DNA of 64,000 nt, from assembly GCF_019649055.1 (NCBI RefSeq), contig NW_026570239.1, positions 992,001 to 1,056,000 of the forward strand, read 5' to 3'. The notes under the pieces are model-generated. The model had not been told where the DNA came from and did no database searches. It worked only from the letters and a program-made list of their open reading frames with translations. Numbering within the stretch: the stretch's first letter is position 1; the number at the start of each line of letters is the position of its first letter. This document shows, piece by piece, positions 9,537 to 50,586 of the stretch. The DNA is from Paramacrobiotus metropolitanus. Taxonomy: Eukaryota > Tardigrada > Eutardigrada > Parachela > Macrobiotidae. Both the position numbers and the translations under genes were made by a program.

Positions 9537-10446
9537 AGTATCCGGAGCCTTTTGCGTGCTGTCAGAATACCTTTCTTTACTTACGATGTTTCGTGTTAAT
9601 CAGAGGTCTATTCTGTGCTGGACGAATCGAACAGTTTTGTCATTTATAAGCAAACACGATCGTGATAAAAATTAAGTTGTGCGGTAACCTGGAGTTCGGC
9701 TTCTGCTGGATTTTTTTACGCATTTTGCAGTAATAACTGCAATACACTACAGGAGCAATAATACGAGAAACTACAGGTTTAACCCTATACTTTTGTCAAA
9801 TCTTTAATAGCTGGTATGCAAAATGAGGGATGGACATTAAAACTATGTATTAAACACATATTTTGCGATCGGGGTACAACAACACGGAAAACGAAAAAAT
9901 TCCGAGTTAAAAATTTTCTAAATCCGTCAATGTCAGGGAATTGTACATATTTTGGAAAAAGTTTGTTCTTCTTGTCCGCAAAACTTTTGCAACCGAATGT
10001 TCACTATTCAGTTCTTCTTTCTTAGTTCTTGAAATGCTTGCTTTGTTTTGTTGTTAACTTCCCCTCTAAATCGGATAAATAATTATTAGATCATTCACCT
10101 CGTAATTAGTCATCCTCGGTCTGCGGATAAATTTCCGAAGATGATGAATAACATCTGCACTTTCGCGGAAGGTCGTAGTCGTAACGCTTCGGAAACTGCA
10201 TTCAGTTTCGTGTCAACGACAGATTTTATACCTCCCTCAAAATGCGTGTATACTTCGAAGTAGTGACCAGAGGCAATAAGAAACTTCTCTGTTTGTCGTA
10301 TATTTAACGCTTTAGTCTGTACTAACTACATCACCAGCATAAAGCGGTTTTTCATATTACGCCCATCTCACCGGAATAGCCGCCGTTTACGTCGCATGTA
10401 CAGTTTTTGCTGAGAGCCCTTTCTGCAGGTTCTAGCCGTCCAAAAA
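9537..10446. other. Intergenic, nothing recognised
   Basis: AT-rich spacer between two LRR genes; no supported feature. Confidence 0.4.
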
Positions 10447-10860
10447 ATGGATGTTTTTGCATTAATTCACCTCATTTTTGTGACACTTTTCTTGACTCCA
10501 TTAAATCCATTTTTTGGTTGCCAGAGTAGCGAGTTCAACAGCCATTACACTTTACCGGCTTGCAAAAAAGAAGTATGGCCGGTGTATGGGTATACTGTGG
10601 AATCACATGATTGCACATGCAACCAGCCGGTGTATAACTTAAGTGATATTCCACGCAGTGTTGATTGGCTGCAAATAGGCTCGTTTCCAACGGGATTACA
10701 CATACCCTCGTCAGCAATATCATATAGTTTAATCATTACTTTTGAATTAGCTTTAGATATTAGGGATTACCTCCTTTTTTATATTAAACTTACAAATATG
10801 AAACATTTAGATATGGATATCAGATACCATTTTGTATTTATTTTGGCATATTCCACATAA
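10447..10860 (+). CDS. 5' exon of a second LRR-type protein (LRR-B), 3' limit uncertain
   Basis: The open frame starts with a signal-peptide-like segment (ALIHLIFVTLFLTPL), then a cysteine-bearing N-terminal cap (CKKEVW, SHDCTCNQPVYNL) and an LRR-like start (IPRSVDWLQIGSFPTGL). The downstream part (from about 10710) is low-complexity and probably read-through intron; no strong donor site is visible. The likely continuation is the exon at 27741-28131 and the one at 33734-34177, which share the LRR family and join in frame with each other. If so, the intron after this exon now holds about 17 kb of mobile DNA. Whether the gene is still expressed as one transcript is unknown. Confidence 0.6.
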   Translation: MDVFALIHLIFVTLFLTPLNPFFGCQSSEFNSHYTLPACKKEVWPVYGYTVESHDCTCNQPVYNLSDIPRSVDWLQIGSFPTGLHIPSSAISYSLIITFELALDIRDYLLFYIKLTNMKHLDMDIRYHFVFILAYST

Positions 10861-11068
10861 CTAGTTGTACACAAAAAGGCAAACATCCGAGACATACTTT
10901 CACATGAAAACACCAACATAATTAGGTAAAAAAATATAAACTGATAATTCGCCAGAAGCATAAACGGAGAACAAAAATGGTGCTTGAAATTACAAAAAAT
11001 GCAGCACTAGATAGACATTGCTAAAATGCATAACAAGATAATTATCGCCACGATGGCAAGTATAACCA

Positions 11069-11084
11069 TGGATGTCGACATCCA
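11069..11084. repeat. GTCGAC palindrome 1: TGGATGTCGACATCCA
   Basis: Perfect 16-bp palindrome, 6 bp beyond the stop codon of the BEN gene (minus strand). Confidence 0.95.
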
Positions 11085-11090
11085 AATGGA

Positions 11091-14000
11091 TCAGTCCAGA
11101 TCCGCGGCGTACCCTGACTGATCAGGCTTGGAATGGTTCCGGCGACAATAGTACAGCTTTCGGCTGAAAGCCTGCAGCAATTCAATCTCTTTAATTGGCG
11201 TCGCACGTTTTGTCAGGATCCCCGGATGATACTGATTGATGTATCCTGTAGAAAACGTAGCAAATATTTACTGCTGACATAACAAAATATTTTTTAGACA
11301 ATTACCCAAAACATCTCTCAGCAGGTCGCTGCCAAAGGCACACTTCAATCCAAAGTGGTCTCCAGTAAACAAGCGCAGGGCATTGTCTTCGGATCCAAAA
11401 AACAGTAACGCAAGATTCACAGCATCCATCTGTACGCGAGCTGGAGTAAGGTTGACCTAGAAATTTTGGAACCGCGCGGCAGGCAAGTAGTGACCAGATC
11501 CAGGGAACAGCTCCACCACGTCGGCCGAACGTGTGCGCCACTGTCGCCGCAGCTGTGCAAGTAGAGCGTTCTGCTCCTCACTCCGCTCTGAAACAATGAA
11601 AATGTTGATGTCGACATCAAAAAATAATTTATTGTAAAAACGACGTTCGGAGTTACTTTTTTGTCGTTTTTCCTTCCTAGCAACCAGTGGAAACGGCTTT
11701 CGCTTGCTACCAACAAAATCTACAAACACGAAAAACTATTAACACCGCGGACCTAAGAAAATCAGTTTCATTAAAAAAGTTATCACCTCCTTCCTCTTGC
11801 GCGAATGTTGGTGTGTGCCTGCGACCTGCAGCACGTGCATCCCTGGTGTGATTCAGTTCGTTGCTGGATCGAAAAGTTTGCTCACTCGTAGAGTGAAATT
11901 CGCGTTTTTCTGCAGAAAATGTGTAAATGACAATTTTAATTCCGTTTTCTTTAAACACGACACAGAAGCACAAAATGGTTACCATTATTTCGCTTGTTTG
12001 CGTAAGGGCGCAAAGACACCATTTTATTTCGGGTCGACCCGAATCCTGAAAATAAACGAATGCGCGTGCCTTTATGCAGTTACACTGGTTACCAAGCAAA
12101 CTGTTTACCAGACTGCTTACCAAACAAATCCGCCCCAGTCGGTTTGCTTTGCACGGACTCTGTAATAAAAGAGTTTCGGTATTCGCCTCGCTTACCGCTT
12201 ATGCAGTGTTACCGTTTTAGAGTTAGAAAGGCAAATAAATGCAAGGATTTCAGAAAACGGTATCTTACGCCCATGATCCAGATCTTGTGCTTGCGCTGTT
12301 CACTGATTTCGTGCGCCTGCTTAGTTGATTTACGGCCGACCATGGTTTCATCTGCGCATACAAAGTCATAGCATATTACCTCATTTACAAATAGTCGGTC
12401 AACCGACACATGAAAGGGACACAAAGCATTGTAAAGTAAATCATATTAATTAATTACGTAACTGTTAAAATCGTACGTAAAATTGATGGACAATACTAAA
12501 AGAGTGCGGTCTCTGTCAGAAAGTTTAGGCATATCACTAGATCTCACCTTCTGTACTGTATCGCACATTCCGCATGCCCAAATTGAGATCTGTAAAAAAC
12601 TATGTTATCTAAAACACTAAAAGCTCGATTAAAAGTGAGAGTTTACCTTCTTCAATTGACTTCCGGTCAGGATATTTCTCGCCTAAAAACACACTAATAA
12701 TTTATCATACTGAAGGTCGACCTTCACAAAATGCAGTCTGCCAAAAGCTTGCGCAGTGGCTTTACTTCCTATACCAAAAACTAACATATGTTCGTGCATT
12801 TTGTATTATTTGCTCACCGTTTTTTGCTTCGCTGTTTGCCATCGACGATACGCGTTGCGGCTTGCTGACCTCACCTAAATCAGGATAAATGCAGACTGTG
12901 ATTAAGGGACAATGTCGTGTTCAAAAACATGCCTTCATCAGAGCTGGTATCTGGGAATTGCCAAATATTTATCTTGCTTTTCCCACCACGCAAGTCTGCA
13001 AAAAGTAGTAAAAATATTATGTTTTCTGTAACTGGTTGAAGGTCGACCTTCATTTAAGAAACTAACCTGGAATAACAAATTTAATTTAAAAAATAAATAA
13101 ATTTTTGAAATACCAAATATTAAAATTTTTTAATAAATATTTAAAAAATCATTTATTTGATTCACGCAAAAATCAATTTTGTGGTTGTTTTTTATAATTT
13201 TGCTAATAACATTAAATAACCGAGTCAGAAAACCGAGCGGAACAGTACGGAGAACAATTTACCTTCCTCCTTGCGTTTGGACTGGTGCTGGGAATTTCGG
13301 CCCGCTTCCTTGCTCTCAGTTTCACCTATAATCACCATAAATGAAGGTCGACCTTCAGAATATTATTTAAAACAACGATAAAAATGTTCGGATACCGTCC
13401 ACTGGTTTTCCAGTATACGGATCAAATTTCCAAACAGACTTCTGGTTTTTATCAGTCCCGCCAGTAACACAGTCCTGTTCGGTGCCCAAATTGCCGATTT
13501 CATCGAAAAGCGCGTCAGCGGCTGCCCGTTTCGATGGGGTAAACGGCTGTTTTTTCTGAATCAAAAAATTAATCCAAATTTTATGGCGGATATGTGTATT
13601 TATGGAAGTCGACTTCCAACATTCAAATACGTCTACCTTTCCGCTTCTTGGCTTCAGTGAATTAAAACGCGCAAGAGCTTTCTCCTTGCTGTTGGTAACT
13701 AATACAACTTCGGCATCAAAAAATTGCTTTGTGTTCCCTTCACGCTTGTAATGGACGCTGATGAAATTGCCAGGCACTAGGAATTCCCCATAGTCATACC
13801 CATCGCACAGTTCCCACTGTGCTTTTGTTGCCGACTTGCTCATTGGTAACAGCATGGGAATCTTGTCGCTTTCAAAAACAACGACCAAGAAATCTGAAAC
13901 AAAGTGCACGACGACTTGCAGTACATGTGAGCCGCAGAATGTAACAACCTATTACAAAAATAAAAACCCAAAATTTCAAAATTGCACTATTTACTTCATT

Positions 14001-14390
14001 TTTATAGGTCCTGTTCTATATTATGTCTACCTATTAACGTATAAAAAATTTGTAATTCCAATTCAATTCCTTATCCGTGCACTTTCTGCATGTCGACATG
14101 CACTTGCCGCACTTCAATAAATTAGGCGCATTGGGTAACATAACCGTAAAGGCTAGCAATATTTCAAGCGCATTAACAGAAGCTAACGTTCCGGCTTTCA
14201 GGAAAAAGTGAAACGGTTACCGATCTTCACTGAACAGATGGGACCGACAACACTTAAAAACGAAAAATTATGTACCGCTTCGTTCAGCATGCCGGCGATG
14301 GATCTCGTCTCTTTCCATCAAAGTAGGGTCTTCGCATTGCTCTTCCATGGAAGTGCCCTTCCGCTCACGCAGCTTTCGCTCGCATGACAT
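11091..14390 (-). CDS. BEN-domain protein, 14 exons, with one in-frame TAG
   Basis: Spliced by eye from 14 exons: 14390-14276, 13893-13637, 13555-13396, 13325-13263, 12995-12933, 12874-12818, 12682-12647, 12589-12548, 12351-12271, 12159-12121, 11909-11787, 11719-11657, 11587-11306 and 11245-11091. Most junctions are phase 1 and many exons are only 36-63 bp; the phases close to 512 codons. The C-terminal part (VNLTPARVQ, LALLFFGSEDNALRLF, FGSDLLRDVLGYI, LTKRATPIKEIELLQAF) looks like a BEN domain, a DNA-binding fold whose characterised members (for example Insensitive and BANP) bind palindromes. The middle is charged and probably disordered. A TAG at 11457-11459 interrupts the frame just before VNLTP, and two donors (12932, 12270) appear to be GC. 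Intron 2 is 81 nt, in frame and stop-free, so could be retained. Divergent to the transposase. Confidence 0.7.
11605..11620. repeat. GTCGAC palindrome 2: TTGATGTCGACATCAA
   Basis: Perfect 16-bp palindrome in BEN-gene intron 12. Confidence 0.95.
12028..12043. repeat. GTCGAC palindrome 3: TTCGGGTCGACCCGAA
   Basis: Perfect 16-bp palindrome in BEN-gene intron 10. Confidence 0.95.
12393..12408. repeat. GTCGAC palindrome 4, decayed: AGTCGGTCAACCGACA
   Basis: Right half intact; the central CpG has become CpA and the outer T is A. In BEN-gene intron 8. Its spacing to both neighbours fits the series, and its intact form would equal site 21. Confidence 0.8.
12711..12726. repeat. GTCGAC palindrome 5: TGAAGGTCGACCTTCA
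   Basis: Perfect 16-bp palindrome in BEN-gene intron 6; identical to sites 6 and 7. Confidence 0.95.
13037..13052. repeat. GTCGAC palindrome 6: TGAAGGTCGACCTTCA
   Basis: Perfect 16-bp palindrome in BEN-gene intron 4. Confidence 0.95.
13342..13357. repeat. GTCGAC palindrome 7: TGAAGGTCGACCTTCA
   Basis: Perfect 16-bp palindrome in BEN-gene intron 3. Confidence 0.95.
13603..13618. repeat. GTCGAC palindrome 8: TGGAAGTCGACTTCCA
   Basis: Perfect 16-bp palindrome in the 81-nt BEN-gene intron 2, close to its donor site. Confidence 0.95.
14087..14102. repeat. GTCGAC palindrome 9: TGCATGTCGACATGCA
   Basis: Perfect 16-bp palindrome in BEN-gene intron 1; identical to sites 10 and 11. Confidence 0.95.
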
Positions 14391-14888
14391 GGTGTTTCAA
14401 TATCGGTAATGGCTGAAAAATCAAGATTTTTACCCGTATGAGCTTTCAAAATTATACTGGCTGTCAACAGCCAATACATTTGAAACAAAAGGTTCAAAAA
14501 GCGCAAAAGCCATCAAATTTTGAATAATACTGGAAACAAAAAAACCGACTTCTGACTTTTTGTTCTTTGTCTAGCGAGACAACGCTCAGCAAGTGGAAAA
14601 AGTGGAACAATCTTTATAGTTAATTTTAAATCATGAATACCAGCTAATAGCAGACAGCAGAAAAATAGCTTGGCTCAGAATGCACCTATCGCAGAGCTTT
14701 GTTCAGATCGAGGGTAACAGGCCTTTACGTGATCGTGTGCCTTTTTATTGGTAACCGTGGGGTGTACCGCAAATGTGCATGTCGACATGCAAGCTCGCCT
14801 TCACAAAATTTCTAAATGGAAATTTAAATGGTTTTCAAATTTATATTTGATTTGTCGTTCAATTGTATTTCAATTTTTCGCATTTATA
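14391..14888. promoter_or_regulatory. Divergent intergenic region, BEN gene and transposase
   Basis: About 500 bp separates the two outward-facing start codons (14390 minus, 14889 plus). It should contain both promoters and holds palindrome 10. No TATA box or initiator can be assigned with confidence. Confidence 0.45.
14776..14791. repeat. GTCGAC palindrome 10: TGCATGTCGACATGCA
   Basis: Perfect 16-bp palindrome, 98 bp before the transposase start codon. Confidence 0.95.
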
Positions 14889-17437
14889 ATGTCTGCACCA
14901 AAACGAAGTAGTGGTCTTGATCGGCTTTTTGGTAAGAAAGGCTTAAGCAGAACTTCTTATTATCGAAGGAGAGTCGCGAGTTTTCTTGGTCTGGATGTTC
15001 ATCAGTTGCAGAGCCCACAGCGTCCCACTGAGGTAAGCACATAATAAATAAAAATGATAAAAATTCCGGTAAAAGATGATGTTTACTTTTATGGTATTTG
15101 CTCAGCACTAAATATTTTTTGACACTGCAGTAGTTTATTGTTTTTAACCAGGGCGCATCAGAGCATGATTGCATGTCGACATGCAGCACTGCTGTTCGGT
15201 GTTTCAACGACAACGATGAAGTTGGGTCGGATGCTGAGGATCTGATTGAAGCAGAACCAGATTTAATTGCGCTGTGCAACAGTGAAGGAGAAAGCAACTT
15301 CGAGAAGGTTTTATCGTTTTTACGTATATCACGGAAACATCGGATGTCCCGCATCCAGCTGGATGCGACTCTGAAGTTTTTTGGTCCGGTATCCGGACAA
15401 GAATTTCCCGACAATCTTTATAAATTAGACAAGATTTTGGAACCACATCTGCTATCAGCCGCAAAACATTTTTATTGTCCGGCTCATGGGAATTATATTG
15501 GAGAAGATTCTTCTTTAATCGAGCCATTGTCTTGTGCAAGCGCTGATTGCGAGTCGACTCGCAAAACGAAAAAAGAGCTGGAAGAAACCGGTGGCGTTTT
15601 CTACGTGTTCCCCATGTTGGAGAGCATAACAAGATATTTGAGCCTTCAGAAAAATAAAAGTGAAGTATTCACAAGGAAGCCACAGGATACGCTCATGTTG
15701 GACGTTCAAGATGGAGAGCGATACAAAGAGATAAAAGTTGGAGCCACCGATTTAACAATTACATTTCATATGGATTCTGGAAACGTTTTTGGGATTGGTG
15801 GCAGTGAAAACGGTTGCGTGACAATTTTCGACTATCTGATTAATGAACTTCCGCCAAGAAAACGGTACCGTCGGCCATTTTTGTATGCCATTGCGGCGGG
15901 AAAGATTCAGCCGAGTTCGCAGATTTTGCTTCAATTATTTACGACCGAGTGCAAGCGCCTCTGTGTGTCGACACACCACACTTTTCGAATTATGCCTGCA
16001 TTGTTTATTGCTGATGCCGTTGCAAGGATGGATGCTATGCTCCATGTATCATTCTTAGCGGAATACGGCTGCACTTACTGCCTGCATCCTGGTGAAATTG
16101 TAGCTGGCGTTCGTGTGTATCCTTGCGGTGTGGGTGGAGCATTTGCACTGAAGACTAAATCAGTGTACATGGAATCTTCGAAGGATGCAGTACGTAACGG
16201 ACACCCTGTTACAGGCTGCAACGGACCTTCCCAAATACTGCGGTTAACCTCGATCGACCCTTCTTTGTCATGTCCACCAGATGTGCTTCACGCAATATGC
16301 CTAGGACAAATGAAGAAAATTCTTCAGTACTGGACGAGAGATTGTATGAAGTCTCTGGCAGCATATGCTGCAATGTCAGACGAAAGGAAAAAAGTGTTGA
16401 ATAATGCTCGCCTTGTGGAGGTCGACCTCCAAATTTCAAGAATTAAGTTTCCATCCGAATTTCCCCGGTCCATTCCACCTATTTCAGCAAGCGGATACTA
16501 TCATGGTACTGAGTACCTCAATCTGTTGCTGTACGGCGCGTTTTACGTCTTCGATGGACAAGTGCCTCATGTCCTATACGAAAATTTAATGGATTTGGTA
16601 ATGGCTGTGCACCTTCTGTTAACGGATCACCAACTGTATCACGGAAATTTGCAAGAACATTCCGAATTGGTGCGACAACTTGTGGAGAAGTTTTCTGGGC
16701 AATTCGAGAAACTGTACGGAAAACGCAAAATGCTTTACAATACACACCAGTTACTTCATTTTGCCAATGCGCTGAATAACTGGGGTCCAGCCTACCAATG
16801 GTCAACTTTCTATGCCGAGGATTTCTTGGGCCAGCTGAACCGTTCGGTCCATGGAAGCACGGATGTTTGCTCACAGATTATTCGAAACTATCAGCACATC
16901 GAATTGTTGCGACGTTACGAAGATAACACTTCCAAAGCGGTGTTGAGCTATAATGGAACAAAGTATCACTTTGCGGGTCGACCCGCAAAAAAACCTCCGC
17001 TTTTATCAAAAGAAGAAACCGCAATTTTGAACTTTCTTGCTGCAGATGAAATGCCAGCAAGTCTTCAGTTTTACAGCGCAGTTGTCAGAGATGACAATGT
17101 GACTTTCGAGTGCCGAGGGTACGGACGAAAAGTCCGTCGGATCAACAGTTGGATTCAAACTGTTGCCCATGAAGTGGCACAGCTCCTCATATTTTTCTAC
17201 GACGCGGATGCCCATATTTTTGGAGCGGTTGTTGACATCATCCCGAGTGTTGCATTTAATAGGTTTAAGTTGCCTGGCGGAGAAAGCCCAGAATTTTTTA
17301 GAAAATGCTCGCGGCGCAGAGAATGTGTGGCAATTAACTTGTGTTCGATATTCCGCCATGCAGTTGTCGTGATTGATCCAGTGACAGATTCTCCTACGTT
17401 TGCAGTGTTTATTCCCAATAATCAATACATCATGTAA
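14889..17437 (+). CDS. Tnp2/EnSpm (CACTA)-like DDE transposase, 2 exons
   Basis: Exon 1 (14889-15032, MSAPKRSSGLDRLF...) ends GAG|gtaagc; exon 2 (15152-17437) joins in phase 0, giving 809 residues. The N-terminus is short and basic. A Cys/His cluster follows (YCPAHGNYI, LSCASADC), then the catalytic region in the order typical of Tnp2-type enzymes: FHMDSGNVFG (D about 256), PPDVLHAICLGQMKKIL (D about 425), a YLNLLLYGAFYV block, YNTHQLLHFANALNNWGP, and FYAEDFLGQLNRSVHG (E about 604). The expected acidic residues are present, and the frame is open throughout, so the gene may be active or recently active. Five palindromes lie in its coding sequence and one begins 5 bp past the stop. Family assignment rests on motif order; the match to animal EnSpm-like proteins is from memory of the family, not a search. 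Confidence 0.85.
15170..15185. repeat. GTCGAC palindrome 11: TGCATGTCGACATGCA
   Basis: Perfect 16-bp palindrome in transposase exon 2, coding for CMSTC, 18 bp after the splice acceptor. Confidence 0.95.
15547..15564. repeat. GTCGAC palindrome 12, 18 bp
   Basis: TTGCGAGTCGACTCGCAA, perfect over 18 bp, inside the transposase coding sequence (CESTRK). Confidence 0.95.
15962..15977. repeat. GTCGAC palindrome 13, one mismatch: TGTGTGTCGACACACC
   Basis: Perfect over the inner 14 bp; the outer A is C. In the transposase coding sequence (CVSTHH). Confidence 0.9.
16416..16431. repeat. GTCGAC palindrome 14: TGGAGGTCGACCTCCA
   Basis: Perfect 16-bp palindrome in the transposase coding sequence (VEVDLQ). 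Confidence 0.95.
16970..16989. repeat. GTCGAC palindrome 15, 20 bp
   Basis: TTTGCGGGTCGACCCGCAAA, perfect over 20 bp, in the transposase coding sequence (FAGRPAK). The longest of the family. Confidence 0.95.
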
Positions 17438-17442
17438 CGGTG

Positions 17443-17458
17443 TGCTTGTCGACAAGCA
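17443..17458. repeat. GTCGAC palindrome 16: TGCTTGTCGACAAGCA
   Basis: Perfect 16-bp palindrome, 5 bp after the transposase stop codon. Confidence 0.95.
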
Positions 17459-17911
17459 GTAGATTGAGTTTGTCATGATTTTCTGTGCTGCTTTTTTGTT
17501 TGCAAGAAATATTGATATATGCGACAAATATTTATTTGCGCGAATTATGTTTAGGTTTCGGTAATTTTCAACCGAGTTAAATAAAATTGCCATAAATAAT
17601 TATTATCAAAACTGCCATCTAGGGGGCTGGCTGTAAGATTCGTATTTGCCCAATTGAAAAGAAAAGGGCGGAGGCGTGGCCAGCGCCCTCGCACCGTCGG
17701 TTACTTTGATCTCAAAGGGGCCGCTAGCTGGTATACACGGTCCGGCACCTGGGGCGTTCCAACTTAAAAATGTAGTACCAATTTCCGCGTAACGCGATCA
17801 ACATGTTCTCGCACACTAATCAAAGCTAGCACTTAAAACTGCGGTAGGATAGTCCTCGTTTGTCTTATTTGTAGTTGTTTGGTACATATTCCTTCTAAGC
17901 AGGCAGTTATT

Positions 17912-18444
17912 ATGGATTGTCCACAGTCTGATGACAGTGCTTTGCGCGTCGACGCGCAGGATGATGTTGCAGCTCCATCGTCTGAGCCAACAACAGGTAG
18001 GTCGATGCATCGTGCTGCGTGTGCAGTGATGGCTGTATAAATTTCATTCTGCTTGTAGCTTGAAGCTTTTTTATTTGAACAGTGCCTATGAAAATGTCTC
18101 CTGTAGTCAGTCAGGTGGCAGAATACGGTTCGAGTGAACATGAATCAGACCTTCCGCCGGCCTCAGCTATACATGGTGCGAACTACAAGGAGCGTAACAC
18201 CCATTGGCGTCTGCAGCCTGGAATGAGTATTCACAATCCACGATGTCGCATTATATTTCCGGCAAAAGGTGTTGTCTACTCGGATGAAGAAGAAGACTCT
18301 GGAAGTGTTAGAAAAAAGGCGCGAGGTAACGATTTGCGTGTCGACACGCAGCAGGCGGACAACTCCAAACTTTCTGACAAAGCTGGCAAAGACGTCCGGA
18401 AACCCGTGCTACCCAAGAAGCCGAAAAAGAAGGGTTTCATGTGA
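17912..18444 (+). CDS. Small basic/acidic element protein, 2 exons
   Basis: Exon 1 (17912-17996) ends ACAG|gtaggt in phase 1; exon 2 (18083-18444) follows TTTGAACAG, giving 148 residues. I do not recognise it. It has an acidic patch (SDEEEDSGS) next to a basic patch (RKKARG), and a Lys-rich C-terminal tail (KPVLPKKPKKKGFM), suggestive of a nuclear or nucleic-acid-binding protein. Two palindromes fall in its coding sequence in the same reading register and encode nearly the same peptide, LRVDAQ (17943) and LRVDTQ (18335). It lies 474 bp downstream of the transposase on the same strand and ends just before the tandem repeat array. Role in the element is unknown; an accessory DNA-binding subunit is a guess. 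Confidence 0.6.
17943..17958. repeat. GTCGAC palindrome 17: TGCGCGTCGACGCGCA
   Basis: Perfect 16-bp palindrome in exon 1 of the small protein gene (LRVDAQ). Confidence 0.95.
18335..18350. repeat. GTCGAC palindrome 18: TGCGTGTCGACACGCA
   Basis: Perfect 16-bp palindrome in exon 2 of the small protein gene (LRVDTQ); the last before a 7.2-kb palindrome-free stretch. Confidence 0.95.
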
Positions 18445-18524
18445 TTTTGTGAAACTGTTTATGCGTGACATATTTTGTGCTCGGCCTTGTTTTGGTTATT
18501 TTGTTAAATAACGTCACGTCACAT

Positions 18525-19255
18525 GATTTAAGGTTACATTTACATACAGTTATTTCTGCTTGGTTTCGTCTGGTTACATATGTTACGAGTTTATTTTAGG
18601 CTAACAGATTACAACAGTACGGTGTCTTCAAATTACATCGGTGTGCGCTGAATCCGGCTTTGTAACCTGTGGTTACATTTGCTGTTAGTTTAAATGAAGT
18701 TTAGGCAATTTTGGTCACAATAGTTTACATTTAATTCCGCTTGGTAACCCTCAGTTACTTTAAGTGCCGGTTGAGGTATGTAACGTTACTACGTTAAGTT
18801 TAACTTAGGTTACATTGGTGTTCTTCCAGTTATATAGATATGGCTTGAAATACCTTCGGTTACCTTAAATAACAATTTAGGTTTAGGTAACTTTTCAACG
18901 ATCAGACTTCTTTACCTTACATCGGTGTAATCTGAATTAATTTGGTTACCTTAATTATCGGTAAAGTTTAAAATAACGTCACCACCTTATGAAACCATTT
19001 GGTTACATCGGTGCACGGTCTTTTCTGCGTCGTAACCTTTCGTCACTTCAATTGCCGGATCAGTTAAGTAACGTTACCACGTTAAGTCTACTTTAGGTTA
19101 CACTGGTGTACGTTGAATCACCTTCGGTTACTTTAATTACCGGTTGAGTCAAGTAACGTTACCACATTAAGATTCCTTTCGGTTACATTGGTATACGTTG
19201 AATTACGCTTGGTTACCTTTGGTTACTTTAATTACCGTTTCAGAAATTACGTTAC
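18525..19255. repeat. Degenerate tandem array rich in GGTTAC / GTAACGTTAC
   Basis: About six or seven diverged units of roughly 115 bp. A unit reads GGTTACATTGGTGTACG, then a TTGGTTACCTT-type word, TTTAATTACCGG, and AAGTAACGTTACCACGTTAA. The last two units are the most alike. Arrays of this kind near an end are common in CACTA-like and other DNA transposons, where they bind transposase subunits. This one ends where the ALG2 fragment begins. Confidence 0.75.
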
Positions 19256-19261
19256 GTATTG

Positions 19262-21008
19262 AGGTTATCTTTATGTGGCCCTAACGGTACGCCATAGAAC
19301 AGCTGCGGCGGTACTGCTTCAAATGAAGCTCCATACGAAATAAAAACGCCAATCAGGTCTGACGTCAGGTGACCACTAAGACCCAGCGGTTCCACGAGGT
19401 CCACCAGATCCTGATGGTATTCGCGGTTCTCCGGTACCCGCTCGTCGTAGCCTCCGGCAATGACCAGATGGATTTTAGCGTTCTTCCGACCATGGTGGAG
19501 CGTCAGTTCACAGGGAAGCAAATGCTACAGTGTTGCTGGAAAAATAAAACAACTTTTTAAGTAGGCTATTCTGCTTTCCAAAAGCGGAAGATATTTAAGA
19601 AAGCGTACTCTGGCATGACAATGAGGGATAGCAGTAAGATTGCAAGGCAGACCAATCTTCAGAAGAATAATAATAGAGAAATTCAACGAACACTAATAAA
19701 AGACAGCTCAGATCCCATCACAAAAGCCTATCAGCAGCGGTTAGCTAAATCTCTTAGAGAAAATACTGCGTTCCGAAGCACAGTTAGCAGATGATTACAA
19801 TAAAAAATGTAATTCAGATTCAGCAATAAGGATGCTGCAAAAATTTTAATGTAGGATCAGGTTTTTAGCGGGCATACCAAAGGCAGCAACGGCAAGTTCC
19901 ACTTAATTTTTCCTTTCGTAGCGATTAACCGACAGAATTACATAATCCGCGCTTGTCGGAAGCTGCGCATGGCGTCCGTCGGCCGGCTGGAAGCGGTCAA
20001 ACGTTGAGCAATGCAACGATGGATACAAGACTTGACGAAGCGCTCCTTTCAGTGAATGAAAAGTATCTTCGAAAATTCCATAAAAAAACGGTAAACACAA
20101 TAATCAACTCAATCCGCGAAAATACCGTTTTTTCAGAAAATTCGTAACGAAATGTCGAACTCGTCACTTCACACAGTCGACACTCAACAAACAAAACCCA
20201 AACCACAAAACCATGAAAATGTATAAAAAATTTCCTGAATTAAACAATAACTAAATATCGATGAAAATACTAATCGAACAAAGTTAAATTACCGATCATA
20301 TCACCATAACTGATTCATAATTAATCACAATTACTGGGAACTGAAACAACTGATAATGTGCAGAGTGCAGACAACGTGAACAGTCGGTATCGCATCGCAA
20401 GAACAGGAAAGATAATCTGACATTGGGAAACACCTAATGATATAGGGAATTACCGGTAAATTTGCTGTTGACGAGGATACAGTCTGCTTTTCCCGTCGTC
20501 CACTCTTCCAGCCAGTCGATGGGCGCACGATACAGTCGCTTCAACCACGAAGCCCGCTGCGTCAGGAGCATATCGGGGAAATGGCAGTAGAAGATCACCG
20601 GCTTTCCGCTCCATTTCAGCACGGGAATGCAGGCTGACACCTGATCACAGAAGACGACATCATACTGCCAGCCACTCCAGCCGATGATCGCCACACTGCG
20701 CAAACGATCATGCGCAGGTAGGCGAACAGCGCGTGCAGTCGTCCGCCTAAAGACCGCGGCAGCCATTCACCCACGACACAGATTTCCAGAGTGCCGTCGC
20801 GGGTTTCCGGGAAACAGTGAGAGGGGTCGTGGTGAGCAGTGAGGAAGCGGACGGAATGGCCCTTGCTCTGCAGTGCCACAGCAGCGTCCACGACGAGACG
20901 CTCCGCACGACCGATCCCCAGATCGGGATGCACGAACACAACGTTAAGGCTGCTCCCGTTGGATGACGGCGTCGCACTTGCTTTGACACGGGTCCGAAGA
21001 GCAGCCAT
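19262..21008 (-). pseudogene. ALG2: Truncated ALG2 (alpha-1,3/1,6-mannosyltransferase) copy
   Basis: ALG2 adds mannose to the dolichol-linked oligosaccharide at the ER membrane. Exon 1 (about 20454-21008) has [42 protein letters not shown], then [44 protein letters not shown] and ADCILVNSKFTG. Exon 2 (about 19920-20075) has VLYPSL and ILSVNRYERK; exon 3 (to about 19490) has HLVIAGGYDERVPENREYHQDL. Defects: a one-base frameshift near 20690-20710; a conserved GGAER glycine is Arg; the donor after RYERK reads GA, not GT; a stop or shift lies before the third block. The last third of the enzyme is missing and the frame runs into unrelated sequence at about 19.36 kb, close to the tandem array. Introns are kept, so it was copied at the DNA level. 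Confidence 0.85.
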
Positions 21009-22084
21009 TTTCGTGATCGATCCAAAATGTGATCACATAAAAAGACAAAAGCTGCAGACAAACGCTGCAGACGCTTCTTGGGCACATCGACCGGCCGCGG
21101 GAAACGTGGAGATCACCTGCACATTTTGCAACAATCTTTAGGCAGTGTACACTCCACTTTGCCACAGTTGACACGTTGAACAATATGTGCAGCAACACGG
21201 GCACGAGTCAACCGTAGGAAAATGCAAACGCTAATAATTCTAATTAGATTTTGTAGAATATTTTGGCATCGACCCGTATTTACGAAATTCCTCATGACTG
21301 GCAATTATGGGTCTCACAAGACAACACGTCAGCGAGAACACGACGCAAAAAATGCAAACGAAGAGAACCGCTAACTTACCTGCATAGGAAGCTCTCTCAA
21401 TGATAGTCTGGAAAAAATGATAAATACTACCAGAAATAGAATCGACCGGAACTCGGTCTTATTCTTTCAAGTCAAGAAACTTGGAAATATCGACCGATTC
21501 AGCAGCTCGTTAGGCACTGCTCCAAGTATGAAATCCACTCAGAAAACTGGACGCCATTCCACTTAAATTATAATTTTACAGTTTCTGCCGTTAATTTTAT
21601 AGTTTCTGCCGTTTCGAAGACTTCCGGTGCTTAAAGTAGTCGTAACCGCCCGGTTTGGCAGCGTAATGCAGTTTTGTTCGCCACCCGCCATGCGGCGAGC
21701 TTTTAATGTGGCGCACGTGCTGCTGCGTCAGCGGCCATATTGGTTTTCAGTTTTGACTGCAACGCCGCAAACGAAGAACTTCAATCGATTTGGAGACAGC
21801 TTTTCAGAGTTCTTGATTTCGTTTTATTGTGTGGTTCATTTTGATTTCCTTTTTACGTAAATTACATATTCCAGAACGGACTTCTACGAGTTATCATTAC
21901 GTCTGTTAACTTAAGTTTTGTATACGTCAAACTTACATTGTGAGTATGCCGAAATGTGTTACGATTGTGATAACACGGTCGAAACCAGTTTCCTGGGCTC
22001 GAAGAGCTGAATGCAGTGCATGGTCAGATTTAAATTTGTATTGGGATTATACTAATAATCAATATCTTTATTTGCAGCTAAACC
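21009..22084. other. Spacer between the ALG2 and SERCA fragments
   Basis: No gene recognised. It probably includes the original ALG2 upstream region and part of a SERCA intron. No GTCGAC palindrome is present. Confidence 0.4.
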
Positions 22085-24945
<2,861 letters not shown>

Positions 24946-24948
24946 GCG

Positions 24949-26868
24949 ATGGCGGATCTCAAGGATATCAAAAGAAACGCGGAGGTATGCTCTATTTTAC
25001 CTAGCTATTTTTTAGAACAGCTGTTTTAATTAGCACAAGTTATTTATACATTTAAATAAACAAAAATACAATTTGTGATTTCTCGCACTCTTGGGATAAA
25101 CTGTCGATCGGCCTTTTGCAGATCTGAGTTCACTGATCTAGATTTACTTCAGTATAAATTGCTTAAACGTGCTTTTTATCTGATGCTTATGTCTTACAGC
25201 GTGCCCGCGACTCGTTTAAATGTATGGTACATCAGACGCCAGACGGAGACGACTACAACATAACGCCATGCTGTGGAAACATTATGTGCACGGCATGCTT
25301 TGCGACGCTAGTGAAGAATGAAAAAGATAAAAACAAGGACAAGAAAGCGGGAGAGCCGTTATTCAAACATCTGTGTCCCAGCTGTCGCAGGTACGTCAGT
25401 TTTATTAATTTAAGTTTGTCCTATACTTCTCATTTTCTTGATTCTTGCTTGTATGAGTGTTTTCTTTTTTACGCGCAGCCCGAACTGGAAGGAGCTACGC
25501 AAACTTGGGTGGATAAAAGGAGCAGCTGATGACAGCGGCAAAACAGTGGACATTATCCAGGCCGCCATCGCTGTTGGCGGTCGACCGCCATGTGAAGATG
25601 CGACTGCTCAGGCCTCTCTGCCAACCACCGTAAAGGCTTCTCCTCGGGCACAAATGGAATTTTGCCGGAACGTCGCTGAAATAATCTTTCCTGGCCTAGA
25701 TGCCCGTGCCACCCAACTCGGCTACATCATGCTGACTGGTGTAGAATTGCGGTGGCTGTGGACTTTTGATCTGGCGTCACTGGATTACAATTTGTACCGG
25801 TAAGTGCTTTTAAATTTTGGTTTGAATAACACGTTCAGATCGCCTCTATTTATACCTTTTTTTGAAGATCGGATAATGACTTTTTGGAGGCCAGCGGAAG
25901 CCAGTACTATCGCATGTTGCACGCCAACGAAGCGACCGTATTTGATTACGGCAACGTCGCCAAACTGATGGAGAAGCTGGATACTCCTGTGGCCGCCGTC
26001 AAGAGTACGGCGCTGGCTGATTCGCTTTTCCGCCCATCCGTTCTGCTGGACAGTAAGGATACCACGGAATTTGTACTCCAGTGGATTAAACCGTTCGCTA
26101 TTAAAGGGAAAGATGAAGTAATATTTGGATGTCGACATCCATAAACATATCGTTACCTCATTTTACTTTCTTCTTGTAGTATGTGCGAACGTTATTCGAG
26201 CGTTTTGGTTTGTCCTGCATCCGCAAAGAGATCCCATATACCAAACCGCATGCAGTCCATGGACCCTGCAAGCCCAAATGCGCGAAGTGCCGAGTCTATG
26301 GCGCAGTTCGAAATGAAGAACTCCACGTTTATAAGATGTAATTAGAAATTTTATGATTAAAAGAATTTATTTCAACATTCCGCTTTTTGTTTTAGGGACG
26401 GGGGCGAACGGTACGAAGTTACGTGTGCGCTGTGTGGGGTAGACATCGAGTGGAAGGAAATGCAGCGACATGTGCGAACAGTGCACAAAGTGAGTGTACT
26501 GTACCCCGTTAATATCGGCTTTTTGATGCACGTGTGCCGGTCAACCTGCAATTTTCATTTTCTAGGAATCGAAGTGGGATGTTTGTCGGTGCTGGGCTCC
26601 TCTACATGGTCGCTATGCTCCAAAAATTCCGCACGGAGTTAGCTGTCCGCTACGGACCTTCCCTTTGTTGACAGGAAAGCGCGGGGAATGTAACCGGCAC
26701 AAACCCTTCCTCCTACGCTCAAAACCCACGCCCCGCCGCCCTTTCCGGATAGAAAAGGGACTGTACGGGTTAAGTTGGATCTGGCTGTTCGAAATGGCCG
26801 AGCTTCGTGGGTGCTGTCGTGGCCTTTGTGAAGTCTCCGGGCGCAGTGCGGATTTGTTTCTTTTTTAA
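24949..26868 (+). CDS. RING-like and C2H2 zinc-finger protein, 7 exons
   Basis: Exons 24949-24984, 25200-25390, 25479-25799, 25868-26117, 26180-26337, 26396-26489 and 26566-26868 join in consistent phases to 450 residues. The start is the first Met after SERCA homology (MADLKDIKRNAE). Residues about 20-65 form a RING-like cluster (CMVHQ, PCCGNIMCTACF, LCPSCRR). A central region (GYIMLTGVELRWLWTFDL, FDYGNVAKLMEKLD) is not recognised. A Cys/His-rich stretch follows (HAVHGPCKPKCAKC), then a C2H2 finger, CALCGVDIEWKEMQRHVRTVH, quoted here as CALC...HVRTVH, then a CRCW...C tail. One palindrome is in exon 3 (VGGRPPC), one in intron 4 next to the donor, and one 18 bp after the stop, the same pattern as in the BEN and transposase genes, so I group it with them. 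DNA binding is likely; ubiquitin ligase activity is only possible. Confidence 0.7.
25575..25590. repeat. GTCGAC palindrome 19: TGGCGGTCGACCGCCA
   Basis: Perfect 16-bp palindrome in exon 3 of the zinc-finger gene. Confidence 0.95.
26126..26141. repeat. GTCGAC palindrome 20: TGGATGTCGACATCCA
   Basis: Perfect 16-bp palindrome 8 bp inside intron 4 of the zinc-finger gene; identical to site 1. Confidence 0.95.
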
Positions 26869-26886
26869 CTTGGAAATTACTACAAT

Positions 26887-26902
26887 TGTCGGTCGACCGA
26901 CA
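26887..26902. repeat. GTCGAC palindrome 21: TGTCGGTCGACCGACA
   Basis: Perfect 16-bp palindrome 18 bp after the zinc-finger gene stop codon; the right-most site. Confidence 0.95.
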
Positions 26903-26919
26903 GATACTTGTTCTTCTGT

Positions 26920-27472
26920 TACTGTATTCGCTCGCACATCTTGAACCACAGAGTGTGTGTACGGGAAAAGCGCGCATTCAATATACACACTCTAACCGGG
27001 CCAAACGCGCGATTCGCGATTAGATAAATTTCTGATGTTTTACAACATCTGGACTGGAGAACTTCTTGAATAATGAAAAAAATTAGAGCTCTAACAATTT
27101 TTATCATGTTTATGCTCGAAAGCAGCCATTAACAGACAGCTTTGGCGTAAGCACGAGTTACAAACTGATTTGTTGTGGTTTTTGGGGTGCCCCTGGAGGG
27201 GGAGGGGTACGTTCCGCGTCAACATTCTTGATGGCGATGAACCACAGAACAATTCGAGCTTTCAGCTATAGAACCTTTTTTCCAAAGTGAATTGCCGTTT
27301 AAATGAAAAGTCTTGATTTATTAAACAAATTCACAAGAAGAACTGTTCATCCTGAAACCAAATAAGCAATATTTCGTAGTCGTGCATTTTGCCCGGTTAG
27401 AGTGTGTATATTCAATGCGTGTTTTTCCCGTACACACACTCTGTGGTCCAAGATGTGCGAGCGAATACAGTA
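26920..27472. mobile_element. Inverted-repeat miniature element, about 553 bp
   Basis: Arms of about 75 bp (26920-26997 and 27392-27472) are near-perfect inverted copies, from TACTGTATTCGCTCGCAC through CACAGAGTGTGTGTACGGG to ACACTCTAACCGGGC. The 395-bp centre has no ORF of note. No clear target duplication beyond a possible TA. It begins 18 bp after the last palindrome, so it could also be part of that element's right end; no matching arm occurs near 11 kb. Confidence 0.7.
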
Positions 27473-27740
27473 CTTCACCGCGAACGCGTTATTTCGTTTG
27501 TAAAGAGAATTGTTTTGACGGGCGCTTTTGTTGTGACTTGTTGTTTTGGAAAGCAACGGGTTGACACGTTATATGGATTTTGATTCATTGGATAACTTAG
27601 ATACAGATTCTGTGTTGATATAAATTACTATGCTGATCTGCTGCCAAAATCATGCCGTCGGCACATTTTATGATAATGGGCTTAACATTTGAGGTATGTT
27701 GATACAGTTTATAACAAACTTTTTGACTAGGGATATGCAG

Positions 27741-28131
27741 TTATCCCTACATTCTGCCCGTAACCGATCCACTGCCGCCTCTTCCCAGCATCACGCGCCT
27801 GGATATGTGCACCGTCTATTTTACGTCTGACAACCCTCCTTTTCCGTTTGGCGTTTTTCTTGTCAATATCAAAAAAGGAGTTGAAATTTTGAAAATTGAG
27901 GATACTTATTTGCCCGTCATCACGCGAAACACATTTGCTGGATTTCTTGAGTTAACTTCTCTGGTGCTAATTCGCAACCGAATGTCCACCATTGCACTCG
28001 ATTCGTTCGAGTCATTTGCACCACTCAGTGGCAGCACATCGCTAAACAAGTTGACAGACGTGTCCATTTCCGGAAATCAATTCAACCAGTTTGATTGGTC
28101 GGTGTTTGAGCCTGTGGCTGATAACATAGTG
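27741..28131 (+). CDS. Internal LRR exon (LRR-B)
   Basis: Flanked by an acceptor (atatgcag) and a donor (GTG|gtaagat). It encodes LPPLPSITRLDMCTVYF, FAGFLELTSLVLIRNRMSTI and LNKLTDVSISGNQFNQFDW, which are leucine-rich repeats of the same type as LRR-A. It ends in phase 0 and joins in frame to the exon at 33734 (NIV|FISLDRNEISEL). Probably the continuation of the exon at 10447. The following 5.6-kb intron carries at least two inserted elements. Confidence 0.75.
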
Positions 28132-28493
28132 GTAAGATGGTGAGAGTACGATAATAGCACAAAATTGATGGCAGCTCATCCGTTCCGCTGAGAACATTTT
28201 GTGGAAAAATTTCATAACTGTTCAATGGTTATCAAGTTTTAGTATAATGGGTAGAAGAACAGTATAATGAAACTGACAACCACTTGAATTAACCATTTTT
28301 TATTTGAATACGCTATGCTAATTATAATCCTTTTCAACGAGTGGGTGCTTGTAACATGGTTGAACTTGACTTTGTCAAAGATTCCGGCATGTTACCAAAC
28401 CGATAACGCGACTGCCGCAAGATAATGATGATGGTTGTTACTGCCCTTCTATACGGGTTACAATACATATGTAGGTAATAAAGTTATAATAAT

Positions 28494-48300: not shown

Positions 48301-50586
48301 CCGCTTCCGGGACTGAGCAACCCGGAATTCCTCGACAATAACGAATACCTGAGAATCCACACGACGATCATCAGGTGCCCTCCGCTTTCAACCGACCATG
48401 CGCTTTATGCGGCAAGCAGGCTTTTGTGCGAGTAATGACGAACAGGAGGAAGATAGTAGCCAATAGCAGTCGCCGGTGGCAACCCAGGAACTGATGAATG
48501 TACCGCCGGAGCTACTGGACCCGGATTTTCAAGCGATGCCGGTGCAACCGATTCAAGCGATATTACCATTAGCCGAGGAGGCAGGATCAGCTGGGTGCTA
48601 GATACACCCGCCCTTAGCCGGACAGCGCCCGCTTGATGTCGGAAAGCGACCTGCTGATGCAAACGGATGCGGACGATGAGCCGCGATCGCTTGATTCCTT
48701 AGACTCGGAGCTCGGCAGCACAAGCGACTCGCAATCGCCTTACTCGGACGGCCAGACCTCGAGAATCGGCTAAAAAGATGAGGAAAGTTCGGATGAGAAC
48801 GGGGCCAGAGTTAATATGTGCCGTCTATCATAGCCGGCACCAAACAAGAAACGCTGTCTTTATTGTTACCCTTGTCCGACACTAATTAAGACTCGCCGTG
48901 ACTAGTGTCCCCAATGCAGACACCAACTAAGCCGCGACCTTCCTAATCGTGTGCCCCATAACTGAGCATCTCAGACACCGTTTATGCCTTGCAGTCTTGC
49001 ACGATCTGACACCTGCCGGCAGTAATTTTGTGTTCCATGCTTTTTGTCTATTCAACGGTTGTCCCCTCAATATCTTTTACTTCTGGTAATTTAATGTCGT
49101 TTTTCCATCCACTAGGTTATTTGTTTTATCGTTTTATGAGTTTTAGCGTTTCACAGAGTTTTTGTTTTATTGTAGTCGCTCTTTGAATTCTTTTGCTACC
49201 CTATACAGTTGTTTTTATCAAACATAAGAAGCCAAGAGAAGACTTGACCAAGAGGATACTTGAAATAGCTAAAGGCTATTGTAACGCAGTGTGCGGCAAA
49301 ATATTTATGGCTATTTTGCCGGCCATAATGCGGCAAAATAGCTAAAGGCTAATTTAGCTCGCCCTCCTCAGCGACTGGATCTTTTACAAGCTATTATTTT
49401 TCTTGTTTTGACCAGACTTGAAAGTGCCTTTGGGTTTGTCTGCTTACTGAATAAAGAAACAGTCTTTGTGCAAAAAATTTTGCAGTTGATCATTGTTACT
49501 TCACCGTATTGTACGTAAATAAACGATACAAAATCGGCTATAACTGCTAAATATATCCGGACTACCAAAGTGACCGTTGGTCATTTTTGCCGACCAACCG
49601 AGTGAAATGTCTGGGAGCAAAAACGACCACCGTAAATTTTTGTCTACTCATTCTTCTTAAATGCGCTCACCATCCTCTGCGTGTTCTGAAGCCGAACACT
49701 TGAGTAGGCACACACATTTAACTGACACTCGAAATCCAGCCGGCGTTCTGGTCTAAACAGAATTTATAACCAAGCGATACATATTAGTCCAGCCTGACCG
49801 CTTTTTATCCGGCGATTCAAATTGTGTGGACAGTGGACAGTGTCCACTGGACACCAAGGATAAGTTACGAGTCCCAACTTCCAGGCCTGGGGATAATATA
49901 CGGTTCCGGTATAGGGCTTAGGAGTGAACTACCAAAATGAGCTGTTGTTGTCCCCTAGAGTAGGTGCACAAACTGCCCCCCCCCCCCCTCCGGATAGAAA
50001 ACTCTTATGAGAACTGCCCGGGATACATCTTAATCTTGGCTATATGTCGCGTGCCGGCCAAAGTGTCCGGCTAAATTATGAATGCACTCAAAACCACGAG
50101 CTGCTACGGGCTGCCAAAAACATATGGGGTAGAGGCAAAACGTACGACTGACATGTCATGGCACCAGCGGACGCTCCGATCGGCAACAGCTGTCTACAGC
50201 GCACGACTGGCTCAGCGTAAAAAATTGTGGCAGTTTGAGTCGACCGCTCAGTAACCGGTTTATACAATAAAAACAAGTATTTTCGAACCTGGTAAATAGT
50301 CCATCAGTATTTCCAAAGTACCCTGTTCGGGCTGTCCCGGTTGCACGTCGTATCTTATGCTGTGGTACCGCACAACATTTTCATGTTCAAGCTGTAGAAG
50401 AGCCGCCCAGTGAGCTTGGTTGGCAGATTTCGTACACGGAACCGTTTTCACAGCCAGTTCTGTCTCTTTAGCAAAGCTGTCGCTGTCGACCACTGTTACT
50501 TTATGAACAGCACCATAGGCGCCACTGCCGAGGGAAGTTGTTTTGGAAAATGTGCATTTTGCGCCAAGAGCGAAAGATGTCGACAT
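45381..50586 (-). CDS. Protein-kinase-like membrane protein 1, 3 exons
   Basis: Exons 50586-50289, 46575-45894 and 45774-45381 join in matching phases to 457 residues. N-lobe: glycine loop LGSGAYGAVH and lysine in LAVKTV; the usual helix-C Glu is not obvious (HWAALLQLEHENVVRYH has Trp there). C-lobe: LAFLHSRKVIHTDLKPANVV has HTD for HRD; the DFG position reads GDLDDG, keeping an Asp; GTIGYMSPEMA and DVWSLGCILLDLIE follow. The overall look is MAP3K/STE-like. The last exon has a polar linker and two hydrophobic helices (MMTVCLFYGYTVLLLIMCLC and FWHLVIIILILFTILV), so the kinase is probably tail-anchored with the catalytic part cytosolic. Activity is possible but not typical. Intron 1 holds a 2.6-kb element. 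Confidence 0.85.
46785..49360. mobile_element. Inverted-repeat element with retroelement-like interior
   Basis: Imperfect inverted repeats of about 100 bp at 46785-46895 and 49260-49360 share AATAGC(T/A)AAAGGCTATT and GTGTGCGGCAAAATAG words, which are themselves short palindromes. The interior is GC-rich with a decayed gag-like reading frame. It sits in intron 1 of the kinase gene. Inverted rather than direct repeats argue against a plain LTR element. Confidence 0.6.
47700..47971 (+). pseudogene. Gag-like retroelement remnant
   Basis: In one frame the sequence reads LRRQHEAIGTDLDAKFMVKV, ALTGNATDWYREHTTAKPEK and FDIWMPKITARFADQKR, resembling the core of LTR-retrotransposon Gag (a leucine-rich block, then A-x-x-W-Y, then a W...F segment). 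The flanking 47.0-48.8 kb is in the same GC-rich style, with charged low-complexity peptides and frequent shifts. No protease, RT or integrase motif is visible. Confidence 0.5.
49979..49989. repeat. Poly-C tract
   Basis: About eleven consecutive C in the kinase gene's first intron. Confidence 0.9.

Follow-up and report, generated by a model that had tools for sequence, protein, structure and literature searches.

Dispersed sites for an element-encoded protein have been described in several transposons. En/Spm (CACTA) elements, which make a 3-bp target duplication, carry subterminal TnpA sites that bind an accessory protein encoded by the element. For VANDAL elements of Arabidopsis, one report proposes that the motif and the VANC protein co-evolve (PMC5735166). 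Dyad-symmetric sites are also familiar outside transposons, for example the palindromic ACATGT site of the BEN-domain protein NAC1 (PMC7764960). Here we describe a window of 64,000 bp from the tardigrade Paramacrobiotus metropolitanus (positions 992,001 to 1,056,000 of contig NW_026570239.1, hereafter C19; coordinates below are those of the window) that contains a large DNA transposon carrying many short palindromes around GTCGAC, with arms that differ between sites and match across the dyad. In our reading, to which we give a probability of roughly 0.55, these palindromes act in cis: dispersed at even distances, they serve as sites for a symmetric DNA-binding factor encoded by the element, and they mark a group of cut-and-paste transposons.

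All GTCGAC sites and all perfect palindromes of at least 12 bp in the window were listed, and the sites in Table 1 rest on these two listings, most of them also on alignment to other copies of the element. GTCGAC occurred 32 times. Nineteen perfect 16-mers fitted the pattern T-K-NNN-GTCGAC-NNN-M-A with at least five matching pairs per side, all of them within 11069–26902, and two more were slightly damaged, at one outer base (15962) or in the core (14458, GTCAAC with intact arms). The initial annotation, made from the letters of this DNA, had reported 19 perfect and two slightly damaged 16-mers confined to one segment, and both listings agreed with it; alignment to other copies revealed two further degraded sites (12393 and 13905). 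One GTCGAC inside the element, at 20176, had no symmetric arms. Outside the element GTCGAC had at most two matching pairs beside the core, as expected from the earlier remark that GTCGAC elsewhere in the window lacks long symmetric arms, and the window listings held one near-miss palindrome, at 50574. The claim of an excess far above chance stood, with a correction to the expectation given for it: base composition predicts about 0.0019 such 16-mers per 64 kb, lower than the 0.015 first stated, against 19 observed. In the whole assembly (169.8 Mb, 533 contigs), TGNNNGTCGACNNNCA occurred 363 times, compared with 236 for the reversed control pattern. Among the first 50 distinct TGNNNGTCGACNNNCA places, the ones listed, 23 were perfect palindromes and all 23 lay within eight clusters, six of which overlap matches of the derivative search described below, while the other two carry the terminal sequence of the element. 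An equal density of palindromes in unrelated parts of the genome, named at the outset as an outcome that would speak against the family, was not seen, the perfect ones among these 50 places being found only in clusters of the element family.

The left boundary of the element (10705) is the start of homology common to the copies L039, L040 and L041, and the right boundary (27732) was placed with the derivative L040 and the terminal repeat. L040 is likewise flanked by ATA on each side. Joining the flanks with a single ATA gave one continuous reading frame, as in an empty site, the right part of which matched LRR_8 with an E-value of 2.5e-6, just above the cut-off. The shared boundaries, terminal repeats, ATA duplication and restored frame together indicate that the segment is a DNA transposon that has interrupted a host gene, and therefore that the palindromes, first described as a free repeat family, are parts of an element; they proved to be conserved parts of this transposon and its relatives. 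The interrupted leucine-rich-repeat host gene occupies 10402–10704 and 27736–28141. That the palindromes are due to chance, assembly artefact or engineering is virtually impossible and was rejected. GTCGAC is short and is the SalI site, but 0.002 sites were expected against 19, many copies carry shared as well as private changes, and the empty site gives a restored open frame. An artefact or engineered sequence, which the initial annotation had kept in mind, is likewise contradicted by copies of 66–94% identity together with the clean empty site.

The neighbourhoods of related transposases were scanned with no core presupposed. The element of the window belongs to family 1, which follows the rule TG-NNN-GTCGAC-NNN-CA. 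In family 2 (C105, C46, C214 and C82; 45–47% identity), GTCGAC recurs about every 390 bp within a shorter symmetric zone, NN-GTCGAC-NN. Family 3 (C107, with a broken copy in C1; 24–27% identity) has the motif N-GGATATCC-N, in which the adjoining base varies freely in C107 and is mirrored there. Family 4 (C87 and C168; 25–31% identity) has GGAWWTCC, with an asymmetric centre in 22 of 25 sites in C87; on either side, 18 of the 25 sites have C/G at -3. This motif resembles kappaB-like sites. Written as GGAAATCC/GGATTTCC (L060, L033/L035), it rarely has a palindromic centre (3/25 in L060). The family 4 transposase frame gave weak matches to Plavaka and DUF4218 (E-values 0.009 and 0.11, both below cut-off). 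A mariner-like transposase frame, recognised by eye, lies at about 113785–114195 of C107 (L059), downstream of most family 3 sites of that contig.

The two half-sites are statistically coupled in families 1–3, more strongly than base composition accounts for. For each family, one representative element was used and right flanks were shuffled among sites in 20,000 permutations, giving a floor of P = 5e-5. Family 1, for which all 21 GTCGAC in the element were included (the damaged 15962 and the unrelated-looking 20176 among them), was symmetric at positions -1, -2 and -3 in 20, 20 and 21 of 21 sites, compared with 7.7, 8.1 and 6.5 expected (P at the floor), and at -6 in 2 of 21 (6.4 expected). 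Family 2 was symmetric at the same three positions in 21, 19 and 12 of 21 sites (9.9, 12.6 and 6.8 expected), with P at the floor for -1, where the left base was only A, G or T, and 3.5e-4 for -2; at -4 the count was 5/21 (7.2 expected). Family 3 was symmetric at -2 in 21 of 23 sites (7.7 expected; P at the floor), with T, G, C and A all in use, and at -3 in 4 of 23 (6.8 expected). In family 4 the flanks were uncoupled (9 and 6 of 25 at -1 and -2, compared with 8.2 and 8.6 expected). The coupled positions of families 1–3 thus lie 4–6 from the dyad and hold several kinds of base pair, matching across the dyad, so that symmetry as the rule uniting the sites was confirmed. The edges at -6 in family 1 and -3 in family 3 are sharp, as a bound footprint would give.

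Free but matching arms would arise most simply if single strands folded into hairpins or cruciforms in DNA or RNA (in family 1, a 6-bp stem with a TCGA loop), only self-complementarity then being of importance. The predicted RNA folds of family 1 20-mers averaged -7.2 kcal/mol, a value obtained without a shuffled control, and the predicted model of the transposase is RAG1-like. Enzymes of the RAG1/Transib type handle hairpins. Against folding, the symmetry amounts to one variable pair beside an 8-bp core in family 3 and to two or three in family 2, the 20-mers of these two families averaged only -3.4 and -3.8 kcal/mol, and symmetry in families 1 and 3 breaks off abruptly. A role confined to mRNA is further opposed by derivatives that keep the sites and have neither a transposase match nor long frames. 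In families 2 and 3 the stems would be short, which makes plain hairpins unlikely there, and we regard folding overall as an unlikely cause.

A site-by-site alignment of the window copy with three others (C57, C116 and C122, the last partial), which share 66, 87 and 94% DNA identity with it in different cases, showed sites at homologous positions. Over 7,429 aligned columns C19 and C116 shared 66% identity, but the majority of arms were unchanged. One-sided losses in arm or core were seen in single copies. In C116, one site carried a paired change from TGCGG..CCGCA to TGCAG..CTGCA (G:C to A:T on both sides), both codons remaining synonymous. The transposase frame holds five GTCGAC sites in family 1 and six in family 2, and four of them are homologous between the two families (the last is absent from C82), in DNA that is only about 52% identical. 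Between C57 and C46, two of the eight pairs at -1 and -2 of these four sites differed, both by paired changes, and none was changed on one side. At -3, one-sided changes were found in three of the four sites, which fits the shorter symmetric zone of family 2, and the outer TG/CA of family 1 was not kept at most of the four. The statement that symmetry is conserved and arm sequence is not holds from site to site but fails at any one site, where the arms are kept about as strictly as the core.

Searching the genome with the derivative L040 yielded 59 matches, and 12 fetched regions were aligned with L040 itself, making a set of 13. Eight sites with at least seven GTCGAC copies were used; 89 of 104 site copies were counted, six having been skipped as too different and nine being gapped, and a difference common to several copies was counted once per copy. 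Differences affected 3.4% of arm positions (30/890), 4.7% of core positions (25/534) and 12.4% of other columns. No transposase match by tblastn and no frame longer than 150 amino acids was found in the 13 derivatives or in L073 and L074, and the retention of sites in such seemingly non-coding derivatives points to a cis-acting role in DNA. Sites as a by-product of protein sequence were rejected, since within the transposase they fall in several reading frames, and they also occur to either side of it, in regions that hold minus-strand genes and in derivatives that lack a transposase match. Footprints of nested insertions (palindromes left by hairpin opening) are not favoured, because neutral footprints would not remain conserved. 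Local copying of sites was not evident: neighbouring arms were not significantly more alike in families 1–3 (P = 0.06, 0.29 and 0.62).

The derivatives also bear on a mutational origin, in which one half-site is rewritten from the other, through template switching or hairpin-templated repair, and selection keeps only the core and the outer TG/CA. Such a process gives matched arms of any sequence and would explain the variety between sites, and other systems are known to correct imperfect palindromes. However, none of the 30 arm changes among the 89 derivative site copies was two-sided, the symmetry of families 1 and 3 ends abruptly with no taper, and unselected arms would diverge, at odds with the mostly unchanged arms of C19 and C116. 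As the derivatives show no symmetrising changes, we consider this origin very unlikely.

The sites are spaced evenly. Eighteen sites of the window between 11069 and 18350 (16 perfect and two damaged, with 12393 and 13905 excluded) had a mean spacing of 427 bp and a coefficient of variation (CV) of 0.25, a regularity reached in none of 200,000 random placements. Spacing was also more even than random for 17 sites of family 2 (CV 0.32, P = 2e-5) and 23 sites of family 3 (CV 0.51, P = 3e-4).

We infer what binds, what the binding does and what physically couples the half-sites as follows. A homodimeric protein encoded by the element, for which the minus-strand gene common to families 1 and 2 is a candidate, would most probably bind the approximately 20 sites and so mark the element along most of its length, allowing its mobilisation. 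The mark might keep the chromatin of the element accessible, the effect that VANC proteins have on VANDAL elements, or protect from silencing; alternatively, it might organise and self-identify the 17-kb donor. Families 1 and 2 have the same GTCGAC core with different flank rules, and the cores of families 3 and 4 are different ones, a pattern to be expected were binder and sites to co-evolve. A homodimer would account for the dyads, the sharp edges and the family-specific motifs. Dimer binding by itself is insufficient for matched arms, however, because additive binding lets the halves vary independently, as in family 4. The halves would have to be read jointly, through an obligately symmetric bound state or through refolding of strands inside the bound footprint. 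The chances are about even that these are duplex recognition sites coded by self-complementarity, in which base pairs 4–6 from the dyad are free if mirrored, the recogniser of these RAG1-like tardigrade transposons reads both halves jointly, and related families have moved the code to other cores. Per-site symmetry could also come from ordinary additive binding if the sites were divided among a number of homodimeric binders that differ in the arms they prefer and stem from the host or from many copies of the element; multiple diverged copies with open transposase frames do coexist. Yet more than 12 arms occur in one element and were kept together between copies of 66% identity, so many binders would need to persist simultaneously, and we hold this to be decidedly unlikely.

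Several observations weigh against dispersed sites for a symmetric, element-encoded factor. The paired arm substitutions that the initial annotation proposed to seek were found but are few, at one site within family 1 and two sites between families 1 and 2, and all 30 arm changes in the derivatives were one-sided; the derivative consensus had broken outer pairs in two of the eight site columns. The broken family 3 copy was symmetric at -2 in only 8 of 11 sites, and no paired change separated the two family 3 copies, the six shared intact sites having the same base and others being intact in one copy only. An interval of 7.2 kb (18351–25574) has no intact site, nor does about 5.1 kb in C116, and the ATPase-like exons described below lie there. 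Transposase relatives of 39–42% identity (L017, L018, L019, L021 and L023) had no comparable motif in the 4.0–5.1 kb seen, and the motif-less L018 carries a relative of the N-terminal part of the candidate gene. A search for dispersed motifs (6- to 8-mers and gapped words) gave best P-values of about 1e-5 to 1e-4 in these five loci and 1e-6 in L032, a neighbour of L019, against 1e-13 to 1e-35 for one representative each of families 1–4. L018 and L026 have five GTCGAC each, a weak enrichment, with matching flanks at one of five in L018. Finally, homology identified no binding protein: the candidate domain of the minus-strand gene had no Pfam or PDB match, whether exon translations were searched singly or aligned, and its likeness to BEN domains is an impression by eye that these searches did not support.

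Table 1. Features of the transposon and its palindromic sites (window coordinates).
Feature	Position	Strand	Details
DNA transposon, whole	10705..27732		17,028 bp; family 1 copy, contig C19
Terminal repeat, left	10705..10713	+	CCCTCGTCA
Terminal repeat, right	27724..27732	-	TGACTAGGG; one base unlike left
Target-site duplication, left copy	10702..10704		ATA
Target-site duplication, right copy	27733..27735		ATA
Transposase main exon	15134..17437	+	754 aa from first ATG
Multi-exon gene	11094..13948	-	Candidate DNA-binding protein; common to family 2; one TAG stop separates two segments here
Multi-exon zinc-finger-like gene	25167..26639	+	Weak RING-like and C2H2-like matches below Pfam cut-offs; common to C116 and family 2
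Small two-exon frame	17911..18441	+	Holds two sites; DNA similar to copy C57
Site TGGAT-GTCGAC-ATCCA	11069..11084		
Site TTGAT-GTCGAC-ATCAA	11605..11620		
Site TTCGG-GTCGAC-CCGAA	12028..12043		
Degraded site	12393..12408		Core GTCAAC; recognised via alignment to other copies
Site TGAAG-GTCGAC-CTTCA	12711..12726		
Site TGAAG-GTCGAC-CTTCA	13037..13052		
Site TGAAG-GTCGAC-CTTCA	13342..13357		
Site TGGAA-GTCGAC-TTCCA	13603..13618		
Degraded site	13905..13920		Core GACGAC; aligned C116 position is an intact TGCAT site
Site TGCAT-GTCGAC-ATGCA	14087..14102		
Damaged site TGGCT-GTCAAC-AGCCA	14458..14473		Core intact in C57 and C116
Site TGCAT-GTCGAC-ATGCA	14776..14791		
Site TGCAT-GTCGAC-ATGCA	15170..15185		
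Site TTGCGA-GTCGAC-TCGCAA	15547..15564		Within transposase frame; homologous family 2 site has G:C for A:T beside core
Damaged site TGTGT-GTCGAC-ACACC	15962..15977		Intact in C57, C122 and C116
Site TGGAG-GTCGAC-CTCCA	16416..16431		
Site TTTGCGG-GTCGAC-CCGCAAA	16970..16989		Paired change to TGCAG..CTGCA in C116
Site TGCTT-GTCGAC-AAGCA	17443..17458		
Site TGCGC-GTCGAC-GCGCA	17943..17958		
Site TGCGT-GTCGAC-ACGCA	18335..18350		
Site TGGCG-GTCGAC-CGCCA	25575..25590		Within zinc-finger-like gene; present in C116
Site TGGAT-GTCGAC-ATCCA	26126..26141		Present in C116
Site TGTCG-GTCGAC-CGACA	26887..26902		Derivatives such as L040 have the same arm nearest that end

The predicted model of the transposase resembles a RAG1/Transib-like catalytic-core fold, and E259, D370 and D485 are among the residues invariant in 12 sequences. 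At its C-terminus (residues ~596–743 of the frame 15173–17437), the model has a predicted BAH-like domain. BAH-like folds in structures of DNMT1, ORC1 or TNRC18 bind methylated histone peptides, and the PHD finger of RAG2 is comparable in idea to this end of the transposase. The 754-amino-acid frame matched no Pfam family at E 0.1, nothing in a public set of predicted proteins at E 0.001, and gave a single hit, with E 0.95, in a PDB sequence search.

Calcium-pump P-type ATPase-like exons were found at 22082–25026, inside the element and diverged in C116 (one piece matched Cation_ATPase_N with E 8e-5, the rest was recognised by eye); judged from sequence, they are probably a carried host gene or its remains. 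A glycosyltransferase-like fragment lies on the minus strand at 20437–21032, also inside the element (weak match to Glyco_trans_4_4, E 0.003; ALG2-like by eye). At 26920–27472, next to the rightmost palindrome and close to the right end, two 93-bp arms are 92% complementary with 367 bp between them. Within the palindrome-free zone, the 0.7 kb at 18532–19226 hold 15 of the 41 GGTTAC/GTAACC words of the window, with 85-bp tandem repeats. Similar clusters are present in the copies C57 (L039) and C116 (L042), and they possibly form a second binding array of the element.

With regard to known systems, bacterial parS/ParB, HIP1 and REP sites are likewise short palindromes present in many copies along DNA. 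They are largely fixed sequences, restricted to bacteria and outside transposon groups with family-specific motifs. Sites of BEN-domain and other dimeric factors such as NAC1 are similar in being short, dyad-symmetric duplex sites; their half-sites are fixed, and we know of none with symmetric but free arms. RNA stem covariation and palindromic RNA dimerisation sites also keep self-complementarity while the sequence may change in pairs. Unlike RNA stems, however, the present sites persist in derivatives that lack both a transposase match and long frames, and in families 2 and 3 the symmetric stretch is short for a stem. En/Spm resembles the present element in having multiple short sites in a DNA transposon with a 3-bp target duplication, but TnpA sites are subterminal whereas those described here extend through most of the element. 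The ATA duplication is of the short kind (2–3 bp) found in CACTA/EnSpm (CMC) elements; the ends, CCCTCGTCA and TGACTAGGG, are unlike the CACTA/CAC terminal repeats of that group, and a whole-genome search with the Transposase_21 profile (PF02992), also characteristic of CMC elements, matched in C117 only.

The closest likeness is to VANDAL elements, in which, according to PMC5735166, a short element-specific motif is repeated through one transposon family and differs between families; of that system, the motif side alone was seen here. The related tardigrade families show this trait, with GTCGAC under two flank rules, GGATATCC and GGAWWTCC. In the VANDAL system, the encoded anti-silencing protein VANC binds the motif and reduces DNA methylation. 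The VANDAL motif is mainly non-coding and forms dense tandem repeats in the same orientation, whereas the present sites are single, palindromic and evenly spaced, with coupled variable arms, and they occur in coding exons too, five of them at or within the transposase frame. Evenly spaced palindromes in coding DNA with coupled arms were not described in the literature listed by searches on palindromic motifs of transposons, BEN domains, transposase sites interspersed through elements, and compensation between half-sites, and the accessible text of a paper on tardigrade transposon curation mentions CMC elements and no such motif. Protein–DNA recognition is usually treated as additive, with dimer halves free to vary independently, and about 60 sites in three families (65 examined) do not follow this. 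If binding were confirmed, the transposons would offer a ready system for non-additive, symmetry-based recognition, and one could test how cut-and-paste elements of very large size, as well as the short derivatives, mark their own length in both coding and non-coding sequence. Dispersed sites that are specific to an element and co-evolve with it are of a kind already known; to judge from the literature listed, the novelty would lie in evenly spaced palindromes running through coding DNA with coupled variable arms.

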